Source: Moraxellaceae bacterium
GTDB taxonomy: Bacteria > Pseudomonadota > Gammaproteobacteria > Pseudomonadales > Moraxellaceae
Direction of reading: 5' to 3'
DNA: 64,000 nucleotides
Assembly: GCA_030646295.1 (NCBI GenBank)
Contig: JAUSND010000016.1
Coordinates: 248,001-312,000, forward strand
Positions 6,599 through 64,000 of the stretch are shown here, piece after piece. Numbering within the stretch: position 1 is the stretch's first letter; each line of letters begins with the position of its first letter. The notes beneath the pieces were generated by a model. It searched no databases. It saw only the letters and a program-made list of their open reading frames with translations, and was not told where the DNA came from. The translations under genes and the position numbers were made by a program.

Positions 6599-7126
6599 AT
6601 GTCCCGCTATCGCCCCCCAGCCAATACTCCCCGTACCGCGCTTATCACCCCGGAAGGTCACAAGGTGCTGACTGATGAACTCGATTTTCTCTGGCGTGTT
6701 CGTCGGCCGGAGGTGACGCGAGCCGTTTCCGAGGCCGCAGCCATGGGTGACCGCTCCGAGAACGCGGAGTACATCTACGGCAAGAAACTGTTGCGCGAGA
6801 TTGATCGCCGGGTGCGCTTTCTGACCAAGCGTCTGGAGGTGCTCAAGGTGGTGGATCAGAAGCCAACCGACCCTTCGCGCATATTTTTTGGTGCATGGGT
6901 AGAGGTCGAGGATGCGGATACTGGCGAAAGCCTGTCGTTCCGCATTGTTGGCCCTGATGAAATCGACACGCAGAAACACTGGATCAGTATTGATGCCCCG
7001 ATGGCCAGGGCCATGCTGAAAAAGACCGTGGATGATGAAGTGGTGGTTGAACGGCCTGTCGGGCGCGGCGTGTTTTATGTGCTCTCTGTGTCCTACTGCC
7101 CGCCCGGGACACAGACCGGGCAATAG
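6599..7126 (+). CDS. greB: transcription elongation factor GreB
   Basis: [50 protein letters not shown]. Confidence 0.95.
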
Positions 7127-7762
7127 TCAGCCTTGTGAGCGTGCCGCGAGCTTGTGTCTGGCCCAGGCAATGACGCCAGGCATGACGCTGATGCCAATAA
7201 TGGCAAATATCACCAGCGTGAAATTTTCCTTCACTACCGGCAGGTTGCCAAAGTAATAGCCCAGCACCACGAATGACACCACCCACAATGCCGCCCCCAC
7301 CAGATTGAACGCCAGAAAGCGCGGGTACCGCATGGCGCCGACACCGGCCACGAAGGGGGCAAAGGTACGAATGATGGGCATGAAGCGGGCAATGATGATG
7401 GTCTTGCCGCCATGCCGCTCAAAAAAGGCACGTGTCTGCAGCAGGTATTCACGTTTGATGAAGCGGTTTTCGTGCTCAAAGACCTTGGGGCCGATGTAAT
7501 GGCCGATGTGGTAATTGACGGTATCGCCCAGCGCCGCTGCCACGAACAGCAACAGGCAGAGCACGGCAGGGTCCATGGCGCCGGTGGCCGCAATGGCGCC
7601 GGCTGCAAACAGCAGGCTGTCGCCAGGCAGCAGCGGCATGACCACAAAGCCGGTTTCCACAAAGACAATCAGGAAAAGCAGGGCGTATACCCAGATGCCG
7701 TTTGCCGCCACGAATTCGGTCAGGTGCCGGTCGACATGCAGGATGAAATCAATCAGTTCCAT
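7127..7762 (-). CDS. DedA family membrane protein
   Basis: [55 protein letters not shown]. Confidence 0.93.
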
Positions 7763-7852
7763 GAGGATGGGGGTCTCAAGAGGATCGCGGCATCTTACCA
7801 GAGCAGGATGTGAGTCTGCCCCGGTCAGTGACGTAAAGATTTGAAACCGGCG

Positions 7853-8824
7853 TCAGATAAAGTTTCTCAGCATCAGTTCGGGCGGGTGCGGCTCCATGTA
7901 AACCTGCTTCTCAATGTAAGCATTCGGATGGCGCTTCAGGTGGTGGCGCAGCAGGGTAAATGGCGCAATCAGTGGGACCTGCCCCTGACGATACGATTCA
8001 ATCAGGCGAACCAGTTCCTGCTTGCTGTTGCTGTCCAGTTCATGTTTTACATAGCCCATGAGGTGTTGCAGGACGTTGGCGTGATTGTTGTTGGTGGCAA
8101 CCTTTTTCAGGGTTTCCATGAAAATGCGGCCGTACTCTTCCTGCACATCATCCAATGGGCGCTGATGGGCATGCGCCACCACCCGGCCCAGATAGCGATA
8201 GGCGGGTTGATGATGCGACAGCAACAGGTATTTATGCCGGGCATGGAATTCCTGCAGCGTTGCCAGCGACAAACCGCTGTCCAGAAGGTCGCGCCAGCGC
8301 TTGTAGGCAAATACCCGTGCCACAAAGTTCTCACGCAGTCGCGCATCCTGCATGCGGCCTTCTTCTTCCACCGGTAAAAGAGGCTGTTGCCGCATGAATT
8401 CGCGGGCATAAAGCCCTGCGCTGGTCTTGCCCAGCGGGTTGCCGTTTTCATGGTAGACCTTGATGCGCTCCATCCCGCAACTCGGGCTTCGGCCCATCAG
8501 GATGTAGCCGCACAGCTGTGTCAGTTCCTTGCCCTTGGTAATGCCGTAGGCAACCAGCTTGTCCGTGACATCCAGGCTGGCGGTGCGATTGCCCACGGCG
8601 CGGATCTCGTCATGTTCAAGGCTGCCCCTCAGGTGGATGGCCTCACGTGGCGAGCCCATGCCAATGCCCATTTCCGGGCATACAGGCACAAACTCAAACC
8701 AGGACGATAGGGTTTGTGTGCAGTACTTCGAGTGCTTGTGGCTGCCGTCGTAGCGCACGGATTCGCCCATAAGGCACTGGCTGATTCCCACCGGGATGCC
8801 GGTGGGGAACTGGTGGTCGCTCAC
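7853..8824 (-). CDS. DUF523 (TudS-like) + DUF1722 (YbgA-like) two-domain protein
   Basis: GISQCLMGESVRYDG, GRSPSCG cysteine motifs; C-terminal YKRWRDLL...FHARHKYLLLSH. Confidence 0.9.
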   Translation of the reverse strand: MSDHQFPTGIPVGISQCLMGESVRYDGSHKHSKYCTQTLSSWFEFVPVCPEMGIGMGSPREAIHLRGSLEHDEIRAVGNRTASLDVTDKLVAYGITKGKELTQLCGYILMGRSPSCGMERIKVYHENGNPLGKTSAGLYAREFMRQQPLLPVEEEGRMQDARLRENFVARVFAYKRWRDLLDSGLSLATLQEFHARHKYLLLSHHQPAYRYLGRVVAHAHQRPLDDVQEEYGRIFMETLKKVATNNNHANVLQHLMGYVKHELDSNSKQELVRLIESYRQGQVPLIAPFTLLRHHLKRHPNAYIEKQVYMEPHPPELMLRNFI

Positions 8825-59005: not shown

Positions 59006-60313
59006 ATGAAAGTCGAAACCCGGAAACCCGTTAACCTGTTGCCATCATTTGGCAAGGCTGCCATTCGCAATTCGCGGATCGGTGTCTTGCTGACGTCCAT
59101 GGCTATTGCATTCAGCGCTCCAGCTTTCGGCATGGAAGAGCTGGCTGAGGATGACCTGCGTGTTGCTACAGGCGAGGGTATTGCCCTTGCGCTGGACAAC
59201 TTCAGTTTTCGCATGGCACCCACCAGTTACATTGAAATGACGGGTTCTACGCCGTCAGGTGCCGCTGCAACGGCAGGCTGGAAGCGTGGCGACCTGCGCT
59301 GGTATGGCCTTTCCATGACGGGTGGTGATACGTCATCGGGTGCTGATTGGTATGCCCCTACAGGTGGCGGCTGTACTCCGGGTACGGACGGTCTCGGTTG
59401 CTCGATGGGTACGGGTGCCATTAAGGATTTTGCGTCGGTATACAATCCCTATCTCATTCGTGTTTTCCAGTACGCCGGTTATAACTACCAGGGTACCTGT
59501 CTGGGGACGGTGGTTTCCGGTGCATGTTCAACAGTGACAGCGGCATCACCAACCGTGTATGAGTTTATCGGCCCCAGCAAGGGCGATGCATGGCGCTGGG
59601 CTTTCTGGGGGCAGCTGGATGTCGCTCAGGGGGGCGCTCTTGCAGATCAGGGCTACCTGCAGAGCCAGACGATCATTCGTGGCAAGAACTCTACTCTTGA
59701 CGGCAAGTCGACCAAGCTTCAACTGCTGCAAACGCCAACGACTGTGGTGTCTGAGCAATCGTTGAGCCTTGTCTATCAAAGCCGTCTCTCCGGTGACTTC
59801 CGTTTCTCGCTGGGTCAGAAAGCCGTTGGTACCGAGGCGCGTAATAACGTGCCCGACTTCAATGACACTGAAGGTTTGTACTTCAAGAACGTGGATGCAT
59901 TCCTGCCACTGGGGCAACTGAACTATCAGACCATGGTGTTCAGAAGCGCGCCGGCCCTGGATGGCAACTTCATTCTGGAGCTTACTGCCATTCCCAACGT
60001 GGCGGCGGTGTACAACTCGTTTTACTGCGGTACCAACACATGTGCCACAACGACGTTCCAGGGTGGCAAGGTTGGTTCTACCGGCGCAATCCTGACTTCT
60101 GATGTGGTCAATTCGGTCGCCAACCCAGAGACTCATGGTTATGTCCGCTGGGGCACCACAACCGGTGCAGCACCTGTTGAGGGCTCTGCAGATACCACCA
60201 ATGGCATCTACTTCAAGGATAACGCCGGTACAGCTGTCAATATTGGCCGTGCCAAAATAGAAGGCATGATGATCCAGCAGTTAAAGTTAACCAGTCTGGG
60301 GGCGGGCACATGA
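59006..60313 (+). CDS. exported protein of unknown function, FEG motif paralog 1 (DUF6160-like)
   Basis: Extended Sec-like signal ending SAPAFG; MEELAEDDLRVATGEGIAL; three close Cys pairs; ATG chosen with GGAG 5 nt upstream. Confidence 0.8.
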   Translation: MKVETRKPVNLLPSFGKAAIRNSRIGVLLTSMAIAFSAPAFGMEELAEDDLRVATGEGIALALDNFSFRMAPTSYIEMTGSTPSGAAATAGWKRGDLRWYGLSMTGGDTSSGADWYAPTGGGCTPGTDGLGCSMGTGAIKDFASVYNPYLIRVFQYAGYNYQGTCLGTVVSGACSTVTAASPTVYEFIGPSKGDAWRWAFWGQLDVAQGGALADQGYLQSQTIIRGKNSTLDGKSTKLQLLQTPTTVVSEQSLSLVYQSRLSGDFRFSLGQKAVGTEARNNVPDFNDTEGLYFKNVDAFLPLGQLNYQTMVFRSAPALDGNFILELTAIPNVAAVYNSFYCGTNTCATTTFQGGKVGSTGAILTSDVVNSVANPETHGYVRWGTTTGAAPVEGSADTTNGIYFKDNAGTAVNIGRAKIEGMMIQQLKLTSLGAGT

Positions 60314-60993
60314 ACATGAACATGAGCAAATGGTTGCTTGCCGGTCTTCTGGGTTTCTCTGTGCATGCCAGCGCACTTGAGGCATTGCAGGATGGTGATT
60401 TGTCCGATGTTTCCGGGCAACAGGGAATAGCTATCGGTCTTGAGTATGGTGTGAACACGGATGCCAATGGCGCACCGCTGGCCAGTCTGGGTAATTGTAG
60501 TGCTGCGGGTGCATCTCCTTGCCGCTTTGCCTGGAAGATTGCCCAGCGCAATGCCAATGGCGGGGAGTGGACGGTATTCAAGGACTCCTACATGAGCCTG
60601 AAAATTCCGGCCCTGAACATTGGCGTAAAACCGACCATGGGAAGTGTTGCGTCCAACACCGGTTATTTTGACCTGACACGCTTCCAGAGCGAGACGGGTA
60701 CCTGCCTCTTGCCGGTGACCTGCGATACGGCAGGCATCAACACGCTGCCGGCCATGTGGCTGTTTTATCCGGCAGTCACTGTTGGCTACAACGCGACAAC
60801 CGGTGTCAGCTCCGGCTATACCAGCGTTCAGTTCGGTATGACGATTGGCCGTATGTCGATGGAGTATGGTGCAACGGGCTATAACCTGAATGCAGCAACT
60901 GGCTCTTTCCTCTCGGCCAAGATTGCGGATAACAACAATGCAAATTTTGCCGGTATTGCCTTCCAGGGCAATGCACTGATTTACGGCTTCTGA
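60310..60993 (+). CDS. exported protein of unknown function, paralog 2 (DUF6160-like)
   Basis: Signal peptide then LEALQDGDLSDVSGQQGIAI; two close Cys pairs; ATGA overlap with upstream gene. Confidence 0.82.
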   Translation: MNMNMSKWLLAGLLGFSVHASALEALQDGDLSDVSGQQGIAIGLEYGVNTDANGAPLASLGNCSAAGASPCRFAWKIAQRNANGGEWTVFKDSYMSLKIPALNIGVKPTMGSVASNTGYFDLTRFQSETGTCLLPVTCDTAGINTLPAMWLFYPAVTVGYNATTGVSSGYTSVQFGMTIGRMSMEYGATGYNLNAATGSFLSAKIADNNNANFAGIAFQGNALIYGF

Positions 60994-61041
60994 GTGCAGG
61001 CATGACCGGTTTAAGGTTGTGCGCCGATATCAACGCCAGAT

Positions 61042-62340
61042 ATGCAGAAAAGTGAAAAAGCCATGAAAAACAAATATTACAACAGACTCCGCTGGTTGCT
61101 GCTTCCCGCCTTGTTGGCAGCCTCGGGCTTTCTGGCCGCCGGCATGACATCTCTGGATGATGCCGAGCTTTCTGATGTGAACGGTCAGGCCCTGTTCATG
61201 GCGACCAAGCAGACGAATGGCGCGCATAATTTTTATCGCATGGGTTTTGATGCCCAACTGGATCTGAACGTCAATATTGCCGAGTTGAAACTGGGTGAAA
61301 CCACTACCGGTGTTGATCTCTGGGCGAAGAATCTGGCTTTGGGGTGTACGGCCAATGCCTCCAATGTGTGTGTTGATTCGGCCTCTGCCACACAGTTGCG
61401 CCCATTTACGCTGCTCCGTCCGTTTATCCAGATTGCGGTCAAGAATGATACCAATCGTGCTACCCGTGAGGTCGTTGGCTTTCGTCTGGGGGCAGAAAAT
61501 GCCTCTGGCCCGATGAGTATCGGTAACTTTGAAAGCTTCAGTGGTTACCTTACGGCAACGGCCAATATTGAAATGCAGGAGCAGGGCAAAGGACGAAATC
61601 CGGATGATGTGGCAGTGACCTGCGGCCCGACAACAGCTCCGTGCCCGCGTCCGGGGGATGATTTAGGAAATAATGGTGTTAATACTTTCGGGCTAAATGA
61701 GCCCTTGCGTGCTTTGGGCCTGAATAACGATCAGGCCTGTCTGTTGAGTATTTGCGCACAGTTCAGGGATCTTACGGCCAACTACGATGCAGTGGCCAGA
61801 AACAATCTGCCGGTTGTTCTGAGTGGCCGTCGCCAGACCCAGGCATTTATCCAGAATGCCCGTCTGTCCGAGGCAGTGGACTCCATCACGGGGTCCATGG
61901 GCATTTCGCGCAGTAACTCGGCACTGTCTGCGGGCCTGATCAACGTCATCCTGCCGATTCTGGCCGGCCAGGTGGGTGACAAGATCAAGTCGCAGCTGGC
62001 AACCGGTCTTGGCACAACGGTTGCCAATCTGAATACCTACCAGATTCCCTACAATGTGCAAAACCTGCACAGTGCCGAAGTGAACTCAACGCTCTTTGGC
62101 TTGTCCTTTCAGAAAGAGGCCGGGGTGCAGTATCCGGGCTATGCAATCGGTATGCAGAAGGGCTGGAGCATGTACCTTCCAAATGCATTCACCCTGACGG
62201 TTTCGCAGCCGACCACACAGTTTGTGAGTAACATCATGTCGGGTGCTGCGGCTGCCGGTAATATCATCGGGTTGCCTACGGCAGTTGGTGGCGGCGGCAG
62301 GGTGTATGACAATTGCTGGGGCACGGCGGTTTTTTGTTGA
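61042..62340 (+). CDS. exported protein of unknown function, paralog 3 (start may be 61063)
   Basis: Signal peptide then MTSLDDAELSDVNGQALFMA; four close Cys pairs. Confidence 0.82.
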   Translation: MQKSEKAMKNKYYNRLRWLLLPALLAASGFLAAGMTSLDDAELSDVNGQALFMATKQTNGAHNFYRMGFDAQLDLNVNIAELKLGETTTGVDLWAKNLALGCTANASNVCVDSASATQLRPFTLLRPFIQIAVKNDTNRATREVVGFRLGAENASGPMSIGNFESFSGYLTATANIEMQEQGKGRNPDDVAVTCGPTTAPCPRPGDDLGNNGVNTFGLNEPLRALGLNNDQACLLSICAQFRDLTANYDAVARNNLPVVLSGRRQTQAFIQNARLSEAVDSITGSMGISRSNSALSAGLINVILPILAGQVGDKIKSQLATGLGTTVANLNTYQIPYNVQNLHSAEVNSTLFGLSFQKEAGVQYPGYAIGMQKGWSMYLPNAFTLTVSQPTTQFVSNIMSGAAAAGNIIGLPTAVGGGGRVYDNCWGTAVFC

Positions 62341-62393
62341 ATGTCGCCTTTACAGACTGAAAAGTGGAACGACCAGATTATCGAGCGTGGCGT

Positions 62394-64000
62394 ATGCATA
62401 AAATAAAAATGAAAGCATTGGCGCTGGCAATCCTGTTGTCAGGTGGCATTGCACATCCGGTACTGGCACTGGATGACATCACCGATGGCGAGCTTGCCGA
62501 TATTTCCGGTCAGGATGGCTTGTCACTCAGCTTCACCGATCCGCCAGCCGGGGTTCAGGCAAATACAATCCAGTGGCAAACCACGCCCACCAATGGTCTT
62601 GAGCTTGGTTCAGCGGCCACGCCGGTGAATCTCAAACGCATAGATACCTCACGCCCCTTGATCAATGCCCATCTTGATGCCGGCTCCGATGGCACCACTC
62701 CATGGGTGTCACTGAATACGGACTGGGCCAATTCACGTCTGGATATCGGCTCGATTGGCCTGACGGGCGTCAGCGGCAGCTTTGGCCGTTATGTGATTGA
62801 TGCGGCAGGCACCTTCAGTGTGCGCAATGCGGGTGGCATTCTTAACGTCAACAGTGCTACCTGGGGTGCAGGCACAACAATCAACATTGGTGGGGTGAAT
62901 CCCGCCTTGTGGACGCCAGGCACTCTGGGCGCCTCGACTCCTGGTCAGATCTACTGGCGGCAGGGAACGTCCGAGTTGAGTATGGGTGACTACACCTTTT
63001 TCTTTGACATGACGGATGGGCGTATTGGCGTTGACAACAATGGTTTGCTTGTCCAGAGCAAGCCAGGCTCTAAAATCAAATTCGCCTTGTCGCTCGATTT
63101 CACCTATGACGCCACCGGTACGTCTCCCTTTGCAATTACGGGAGCGGACAAATCAATGCTGTACTGGGGCTGGCGCGGGCACCAGACGGACTTTACTCTT
63201 CGGCTGAATGGCAAGGGTCGTGTAAAGGATGATAATACTGGCAACCTGAACGGCTTGGGCGCTTCTCTGGCGTTCAATTATGACCCCGATTTTGTCTGGA
63301 TCATTGGTGAGGGCGGTACCAATCCGTTCAAGATCGAGTTTGGTAACTGGACGCTGCTGCCGGGTAATACGCTGGCATATAACCTGCCATCCGTGACACT
63401 GGATCAGCTTGATGTCGGGCAAGGGGTTGCAGGTCTGTGCTGGGGTCAGAACACGATTAGTGCAACTGCCAACGGCACGTGTACAGGATCCGGAACAGGT
63501 TCTGCAGCTAGCAACTTTGCCGCACAACCAATCAAGGTTCGTGCAGCGGCAGATGCCAAGGCACTGGCCCTTGGTGTTCGCGACATGACTCTTTCGGCAT
63601 ACTCATCAACAGTCGACCTGATTGATCGTACGTCCAATGCCGCCAAGGCTCCACAGCGCTATAACTGGGCACTGATTTATACGTTCGCCAATCTGGATGC
63701 CGACATCATCGTGACGCCGGTCGCAAGCAGTGACCGCATGCGGCTTGATCTGGCGCTGACAACCCAGACTCTGGAGACCGGCGACACCAATCGCTGGCAG
63801 AAAGGCACCAACTTCATGATTGGTGATACTGATACAGGGGTGAATCAGGGCATAGGCTTGATAGGCGCTGATGTTCTGATGGCAGTCCGTAATGGCACGT
63901 TGGGCCAGACAGCGAGTGGCATCAAGTTTGATTCTCCCCAGGTGCGTTACCAGTTGCGCGGGATGATTGCTGGCGGTGCTATTCCCGCTATGCCTGTCAT
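62394..64000 (+). CDS. exported protein of unknown function, paralog 4, 3'-truncated by window edge
   Basis: Manual translation MHKIKMKALALAILLSGGIAHPVLALDDITDGELADISGQDGLSLSFTDPPAG... open to window end; absent from ORF track. Confidence 0.82.
   Translation, partial: MHKIKMKALALAILLSGGIAHPVLALDDITDGELADISGQDGLSLSFTDPPAGVQANTIQWQTTPTNGLELGSAATPVNLKRIDTSRPLINAHLDAGSDGTTPWVSLNTDWANSRLDIGSIGLTGVSGSFGRYVIDAAGTFSVRNAGGILNVNSATWGAGTTINIGGVNPALWTPGTLGASTPGQIYWRQGTSELSMGDYTFFFDMTDGRIGVDNNGLLVQSKPGSKIKFALSLDFTYDATGTSPFAITGADKSMLYWGWRGHQTDFTLRLNGKGRVKDDNTGNLNGLGASLAFNYDPDFVWIIGEGGTNPFKIEFGNWTLLPGNTLAYNLPSVTLDQLDVGQGVAGLCWGQNTISATANGTCTGSGTGSAASNFAAQPIKVRAAADAKALALGVRDMTLSAYSSTVDLIDRTSNAAKAPQRYNWALIYTFANLDADIIVTPVASSDRMRLDLALTTQTLETGDTNRWQKGTNFMIGDTDTGVNQGIGLIGADVLMAVRNGTLGQTASGIKFDSPQVRYQLRGMIAGGAIPAMPV

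Follow-up and report, generated by a model that had tools for sequence, protein, structure and literature searches.

Why should four adjacent genes encode exported proteins that carry the same short element directly after the signal peptide but are otherwise different? The question is raised by P1 to P4, the last four genes of the 64,000-nucleotide stretch of DNA analyzed here (the window), which covers positions 248,001 to 312,000 of contig JAUSND010000016.1 of a Moraxellaceae bacterium (assembly GCA_030646295.1). We propose, with a probability of roughly three in four, that the Fil export and pilus pathway has P1 to P4 as four probably cotranscribed substrates, whose defining feature is a propeptide of 15 to 16 residues. 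The shared element is most likely a propeptide processed by FilB, the C39 peptidase of that pathway, and P1 to P4 are probably surface or minor pilus proteins (minor pilins, adhesins, or others).

A shared leader on four exported proteins

The four genes are consecutive on the forward strand, and their junctions range from an overlap of 4 bases to a gap of 49 bases. P1 (59006..60313; 435 residues) opens the block and is followed by P2 (60310..60993; 227 residues), P3 (61042..62340; 432 residues), and P4 (62364..64000), which is cut by the end of the window; on the contig, P4 has 714 residues and stops at window-equivalent position 64508 (L008:6365-8509). The lengths of about 200 to 500 residues given in the original prediction are corrected accordingly. 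Each protein begins with a Sec-like signal peptide, followed directly by a 15-residue element (the leader, positions −15 to −1), which is MEELAEDDLRVATGE in P1 (59132..59176), LEALQDGDLSDVSGQ in P2 (60376..60420), MTSLDDAELSDVNGQ in P3 (61144..61188), and LDDITDGELADISGQ in P4 (62469..62513), all on the forward strand. The leader of P1 is the loosest of the four; its orthologues, present at 11 other loci, mostly carry a G-A end. All four strings quoted in the original prediction, which had described a shared motif after the signal peptides of four consecutive same-strand open reading frames (ORFs), are thus present.

The shared element is real. A leader hidden Markov model (HMM) was built from 84 distinct leaders, all from other genomes and none from this one, and was used to score 654 ORFs of the window; P2 (E = 2.2e-9), P3 (9.5e-8), P4 (2.2e-6), and P1 (7.1e-5) were matched, and the next ORF had an E-value of 1.1. 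When the block of the nearest relative was removed from the model, the values were 3.8e-9, 1e-7, 2.1e-5, and 1.1e-4, respectively, and P2 (5.6e-6), P3 (5.9e-7), and P4 (6.5e-4) still matched a model from which the signal-peptide columns had been dropped. In the whole genome, a leader profile identified nine leader proteins, the next match having an E-value of 2.5. Besides P1 to P4, these are FilA, encoded at C8:474.9 kb, and four FilA-like proteins whose genes lie in tandem at C8:95-99 kb. Two near-identical tandem FilA-like genes in this genome (L009:6049-6927 and 7036-7911) point to a recent duplication; a gene near them looks, by eye, like a PHA synthase gene.

The Pfam family DUF6160 (PF19657; gathering cutoff, 27 bits) matched P2 with 30.5 bits, P3 with 21.7 bits, and P4 with 16.6 bits, and a Pfam search of P1 matched no family. 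The earlier suggestion of a relation to DUF6160 is right, with P2 above the cutoff and P3 and P4 below it. The matches of P2 and P3 span little beyond the signal peptide and leader, that of P2 being confined to the N-terminal 44 residues. Because DUF6160 matches in short leader proteins stop at or soon after the leader, the family is largely a signal peptide plus leader. One passing mention of DUF6160 was found in the literature. P1 to P4 are not members of the full-length FilA model NF050077 (220 bits), to which they show N-terminal matches only, of at most 24.7 bits.

A conserved block of four distinct genes

Beyond the leader, the mature parts of P1 to P4 are mutually unrelated (hhalign probability, <1%) and form four groups that match no described family; the notion that they are one diversified family was rejected on this ground. 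Mature P4 is FilA-like over its first 90 residues (hhalign, 83%), the only such likeness among the four. Neither N termini that fail to align in an HMM nor membership in four unrelated described families, the two outcomes set against the idea of a shared system, was found, and the prediction that four exported proteins share an N-terminal element and otherwise differ is borne out.

Within the f198 and f181 families (Alcanivorax and relatives), 11 further loci carry complete P1 to P4 sets, in order variants, and in G006, a genome of the window's own family, P2 to P4 lie at a contig end. Blocks of three or four leader genes that are more diverged are found in the families f176, f163, and f193 and in Pseudomonadaceae; in these blocks, homology identified only P1 or P3, and the assignment of P2 and P4 was mostly based on size, order, and leader. 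The locus is a block in which four distinct genes, each with orthologues elsewhere, are conserved together and not, as had been proposed, a diversified locus built around one element. In seven f198 and f181 genomes, one contig carries both the block and filB, about 18 to 26 kb apart. A promoter and terminator scan of the locus gave site counts within two standard deviations of shuffled sequences, with no excess.

In two f193 genomes (L187:3908-11143 and L192:7472-14899), a protein of about 2,400 residues is encoded inside the leader-gene block. Both proteins have C-type lectin and laminin-G domains, and one also has a Calx-beta domain; each is a possible pathway-linked adhesin.

Likeness of the leader to C39 double-glycine leaders

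C39 leaders follow the consensus L(−12)xxxE(−8)L(−7)..G(−2)G(−1), with V, L, or I at −4, and their helix from −10 to −4 lies in a hydrophobic groove of the peptidase (PMC6959990, PMC6363468). The leaders used to train the HMM had been gathered by motif pattern and are therefore biased in composition; residue statistics were taken instead from 47 orthologues of P1 to P4 that had been selected by body homology and not by motif. In these orthologues, hydrophobic residues occupy −15 (98%), −12 (100%), −7 (100%, L or M), and −4 (91%), −10 is acidic in 100%, and −2 is G in 89% and A in the rest, so that the double-glycine pattern of hydrophobic −12, −7, and −4 with G at −2 is seen across the set. 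At −1, where that pattern has G, A, or S, the orthologues have mostly other residues (Q in 23, A in 11, R in 11, E in 1, and S in 1), and the residue differs systematically by gene, being A in P1, Q in P3, and R in P4; the G-A end of the P1 orthologues is a canonical C39 site. The window's own leaders have E, Q, Q, and Q at −1 in P1 to P4. In most cases an AxA-type signal peptidase site lies directly before −16/−15, and the length of the propeptide is thus nearly fixed.

The bacteriocin double-glycine leaders that are handled by C39 ABC exporters (ComA, PCAT1, and LahT) are alike in the hydrophobic residues at −12, −7, and −4, in the helix just before the site, in G at −2, and in the use of a homologous peptidase. 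Unlike them, the leader of P1 to P4 comes after a Sec signal peptide and mostly has Q, R, or A at −1, and its site of action would be the periplasm. Isolated leaders had no match among the NCBIfam and Pfam bacteriocin-leader models.

The fil operon and the FilB peptidase

The likeness to the fil clusters of Acinetobacter suggested in the original prediction is right, and the genome carries an operon resembling filABCDEF 160 kb from P1 to P4. Its genes lie in the order filA to filF, the first product being FilA, a member of NF050077 with 229.7 bits against a cutoff of 220 (C8:474 kb), followed by FilB, FilC, FilD (FadL-like), FilE, and FilF. The other five are all below their curated cutoffs (FilB, 388/475; FilC, 402/630; FilD, 876/970; FilE, 82/100; FilF, 81/390), FilE and FilF being only weakly matched.

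FilB is a C39 peptidase (PF03412, 69.9 bits; NCBIfam FilB, 388 bits; FapD, 119 bits). It aligns with the peptidase domains of LahT and PCAT1 (6mpz and 4ry2), and its Gln66, Cys72, His157, and Asp173 are invariant across all aligned sequences. Its relative FapD is periplasmic, and the active-site Cys of FapD is required for secretion of FapC, but its target was not known (PMC5557850); from this analogy and the hydrophobic N terminus of FilB, we infer that FilB is also periplasmic. One other C39 match was found in the genome, in a 742-residue frame assigned by size to the ABC-transporter class. Elsewhere, genome G042 (L179, C111) has seven FapD/FilB-like C39 peptidases spread over several contigs, at least one of them close to a protein that bears a signal and a stretch, MNDAEMAETQGR, resembling a leader.

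The leader and FilB occur together. Among 276 genomes of the class, DUF6160 was found in six, which were exactly the six with FilB at more than 200 bits (6/6 versus 0/270; Fisher p = 1.7e-12), and among 295 genomes of the order, DUF6160 was found in 40, FilB (≥160 bits) in 39, and both in 38 (p = 2.7e-44), these p-values taking no account of shared ancestry and the 160-bit line having been set after a gap between about 160 and about 130 bits had been seen. In a phylum sample that overlaps these two samples, nine of nine FilB genomes had DUF6160, and two DUF6160 genomes were without FilB. Within the window's family and within Pseudomonadaceae, DUF6160 and FilB come and go together. FapD was rejected as the partner of DUF6160, since 14 genomes with FapD-type peptidases only had no DUF6160. 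Two genomes of one family (G121 and G221; L036-L055, L034, and L035) have 15 and 17 leader proteins, mostly short (about 100 to 270 residues) and encoded on many contigs; in these genomes the FilB gene adjoins a FilC-sized gene, and FilD to FilF were not seen beside it.

FilA and the 9xfv filament

In an AlphaFold model of FilA (predicted local distance difference test [pLDDT] score, 81.6), residues 26 to 33 form a predicted helix that corresponds to −10 to −3 and is followed by a beta domain. Compared with the PDB, this model had its best fold match in 9xfv (Foldseek probability, 1.00; E = 0.043), a pilus-like filament of bacterial origin. A Pseudomonas filA gene adjoining filB encodes ...ADMQSMDDAALSGVTGQ-DGISIAGTFN..., and a profile of three such Pseudomonas FilA proteins matched 9xfv with an E-value of 1.7e-9; in the alignment, the residue after GQ is chain residue 1 (DGVSIAGDLN), and the C-terminal ...WGH and ...WAH are paired. 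Because +1 aligns to chain residue 1, the deposited 9xfv subunit starts exactly at the predicted end of the propeptide. A profile of the Acinetobacter/Alcanivorax-type FilA did not find 9xfv by sequence. Across 42 FilA proteins (mean identity, 26%), T-G-Q-x-G at this site is among the residues that do not vary. Edman degradation served at one time to identify the FilA of Acinetobacter sp. Tol 5 (PMC3498257).

Single-sequence folding of P2 gave a pLDDT of 31 and was unusable.

A proposed route for P1 to P4

We postulate that the precursors would be exported by Sec and cut by signal peptidase I at the AxA site just before −16/−15. The exposed leader, a predicted short helix from −10 to −3 with hydrophobic residues at −15, −12, −7, and −4, would then dock in the substrate groove of FilB, in the manner of double-glycine leaders on the cytosolic C39 domains of ABC exporters, and FilB would cut after G(−2)-x(−1), where x is mostly Q, R, or A. 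The mature protein would cross the outer membrane through FilC, a FapF-type channel, and fold or assemble outside, with FilA as the main pilus subunit and P1 to P4 as accessory pilus or surface proteins. The element is not in itself a surface feature; it is best read as a propeptide that is cut by a distantly encoded FilB.

Several observations weigh against this reading. P1 was lost once the signal-peptide columns were dropped from the HMM and is marginal; its membership in the group is taken from its orthologues, because their leader is clear. In the 47 orthologues, −8 is acidic in only 55%, −10 being conserved instead, and since −1 is mostly Q or R in place of the G, A, or S that known C39 peptidases call for, the S1 pocket of FilB must differ. 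Three genomes (G277, G330, and G647) have DUF6160 without FilB at ≥160 bits, one (G331) has FilB without DUF6160, and the p-values ignore shared ancestry, about 11 families carrying both. Lastly, the 9xfv chain may begin at D merely as the limit of the modeled density.

The likeliest alternative, itself improbable, is that the leader stays uncut and serves as a tag for docking, to which FilC, or FilB in the role of a chaperone, binds. Inactive C39-like domains act in this way in some type I secretion systems, the possibility has been raised for FapD, and the residues at −1 would fit it; however, the catalytic Cys, His, and Asp are kept in all aligned FilB sequences, the FapD active-site Cys is needed for secretion (PMC5557850), G at −2 is near invariant, and the 9xfv subunit begins at +1. 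Somewhat less probable still is that another protease removes the propeptide, FilB serving FilA only and P1 to P4 being periplasmic or reaching the outer membrane by another route. The genome's sole other C39 match is in the 742-residue frame of ABC-transporter size, one register is common to all four leaders, and the block lies no more than 26 kb from filB in seven relatives, although the 160-kb distance in this genome and the gene-specific residue at −1 would suit a second enzyme. We place a little less weight again on descent of the shared N terminus from a FilA-like pilin, with no role in recognition by a protease. The FilA-like start of mature P4 and the loose DUF6160 character of all four proteins are what such descent would leave, but the bodies of P1, P2, and P3 are unrelated to each other or to FilA while the leader is kept exactly, leader proteins appear and disappear with FilB across genomes, and two genomes encode 15 to 17 short leader proteins on many scattered contigs. 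Chance likeness of short acidic N termini, which the shortness of the motif and the marginal P1 might suggest, is negligible given the E-values of an outside-trained HMM, the clear gap to the next ORF, and conservation in 47 orthologues, and for P2 to P4 it is already refuted by the HMM tests and the orthologue leaders.

Relation to known systems

Fil, Fap, and C39 leaders are already known. In Fil of Acinetobacter (filABCDEF; NCBIfam FilA to FilF; the "Fil fimbriae" of Acinetobacter sp. Tol 5), FilA bears the same leader, and relatives of FilB, FilC, and FilD are present in this genome; P1 to P4 differ in being none of FilA to FilF, but extra leader-bearing proteins in a block of their own. 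Likewise, FilB is related to FapD, the C39 peptidase of the Pseudomonas Fap system, and FilC to its channel, FapF, but Fil is a separate subfamily, and genomes with FapD-type peptidases only are without DUF6160 proteins. The FapB, FapC, and FapE families matched neither P1 to P4 nor FilA, which places none of these proteins in Fap.

Among the Fap proteins, FapE alone was seen to be fully N-terminally processed (PMC5557850). In Pseudomonas and relatives, it has a stretch in a similar register (LKDAEMAELRGR, LSDEELGGLRGR, and VSDPVLAQMRGK), and its match to the Fil leader HMM was not significant. Because that HMM misses FapE, the link, drawn from the register and the published mass spectrometry, is a lead and not a result. 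FapE genes at L163, L165, L166, L167, and L170 encode a C39-like register with a G-R or G-K end, a candidate FapD site.

The "Pilus-like-alpha" filament from a karst cave (PDB 9xfv, 2026) is homologous to Pseudomonas FilA, with matches in both its N- and C-terminal parts; it is a FilA-type subunit, unlike P1 to P4, whose place in such a filament is only putative. The Nap island of Neisseria gonorrhoeae likewise combines a C39 peptidase (NapP), a FapF-like channel (NapF), and peptides with a C39-type motif, but these are small GG-motif peptides linked to autolysis, and the term "signal peptide" is absent from the main text of that report (PMC11798529).

The "undescribed system" of the original prediction is thus only partly true, because Fil and Fap have names; what appear to be undescribed in the open-access literature, most subscription journals lying outside the search, are the Sec-then-C39 leader common to unrelated substrates and the P1 to P4 block. 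No role for the Fil leader was found in that searchable literature.

Genes downstream of the block

Past position 64000, the contig continues not with secretion genes but with a membrane glycosyltransferase-like gene and other genes of the surface-polymer type. Directly 3′ of P4 lie four close same-strand genes (L008:8582-12519). The first encodes a 542-residue membrane protein with a weak likeness to AZOBR_p60025 (cell surface glycopolymer formation), and the others encode a 198-residue membrane protein, a glycosyltransferase, and an acyltransferase-like protein. In G496, a 541-residue protein of similar look, judged by eye only, is also encoded 3′ of the block (L159:10279-11904).

Implications

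A general two-step route in Pseudomonadales and some other Gammaproteobacteria, in which Sec export would be followed by periplasmic FilB acting on a 15-residue "G-x" propeptide and coupled to FilC, has in our estimate slightly better than even odds; it would serve many unrelated, genome-scattered substrates, including the widely conserved set of P1 to P4. The action of FapD on FapE may be explained by this rule as well, with R, K, or G at −1. For periplasmic proteases of a class that had no known target, the leader provides a concrete candidate for both the sequence recognized and the site cut, and DUF6160 moves from a family without an assigned function to a probable sorting propeptide. Secreted and pilus proteins of Acinetobacter, Alcanivorax, Pseudomonas, and their relatives could be listed by means of this leader.

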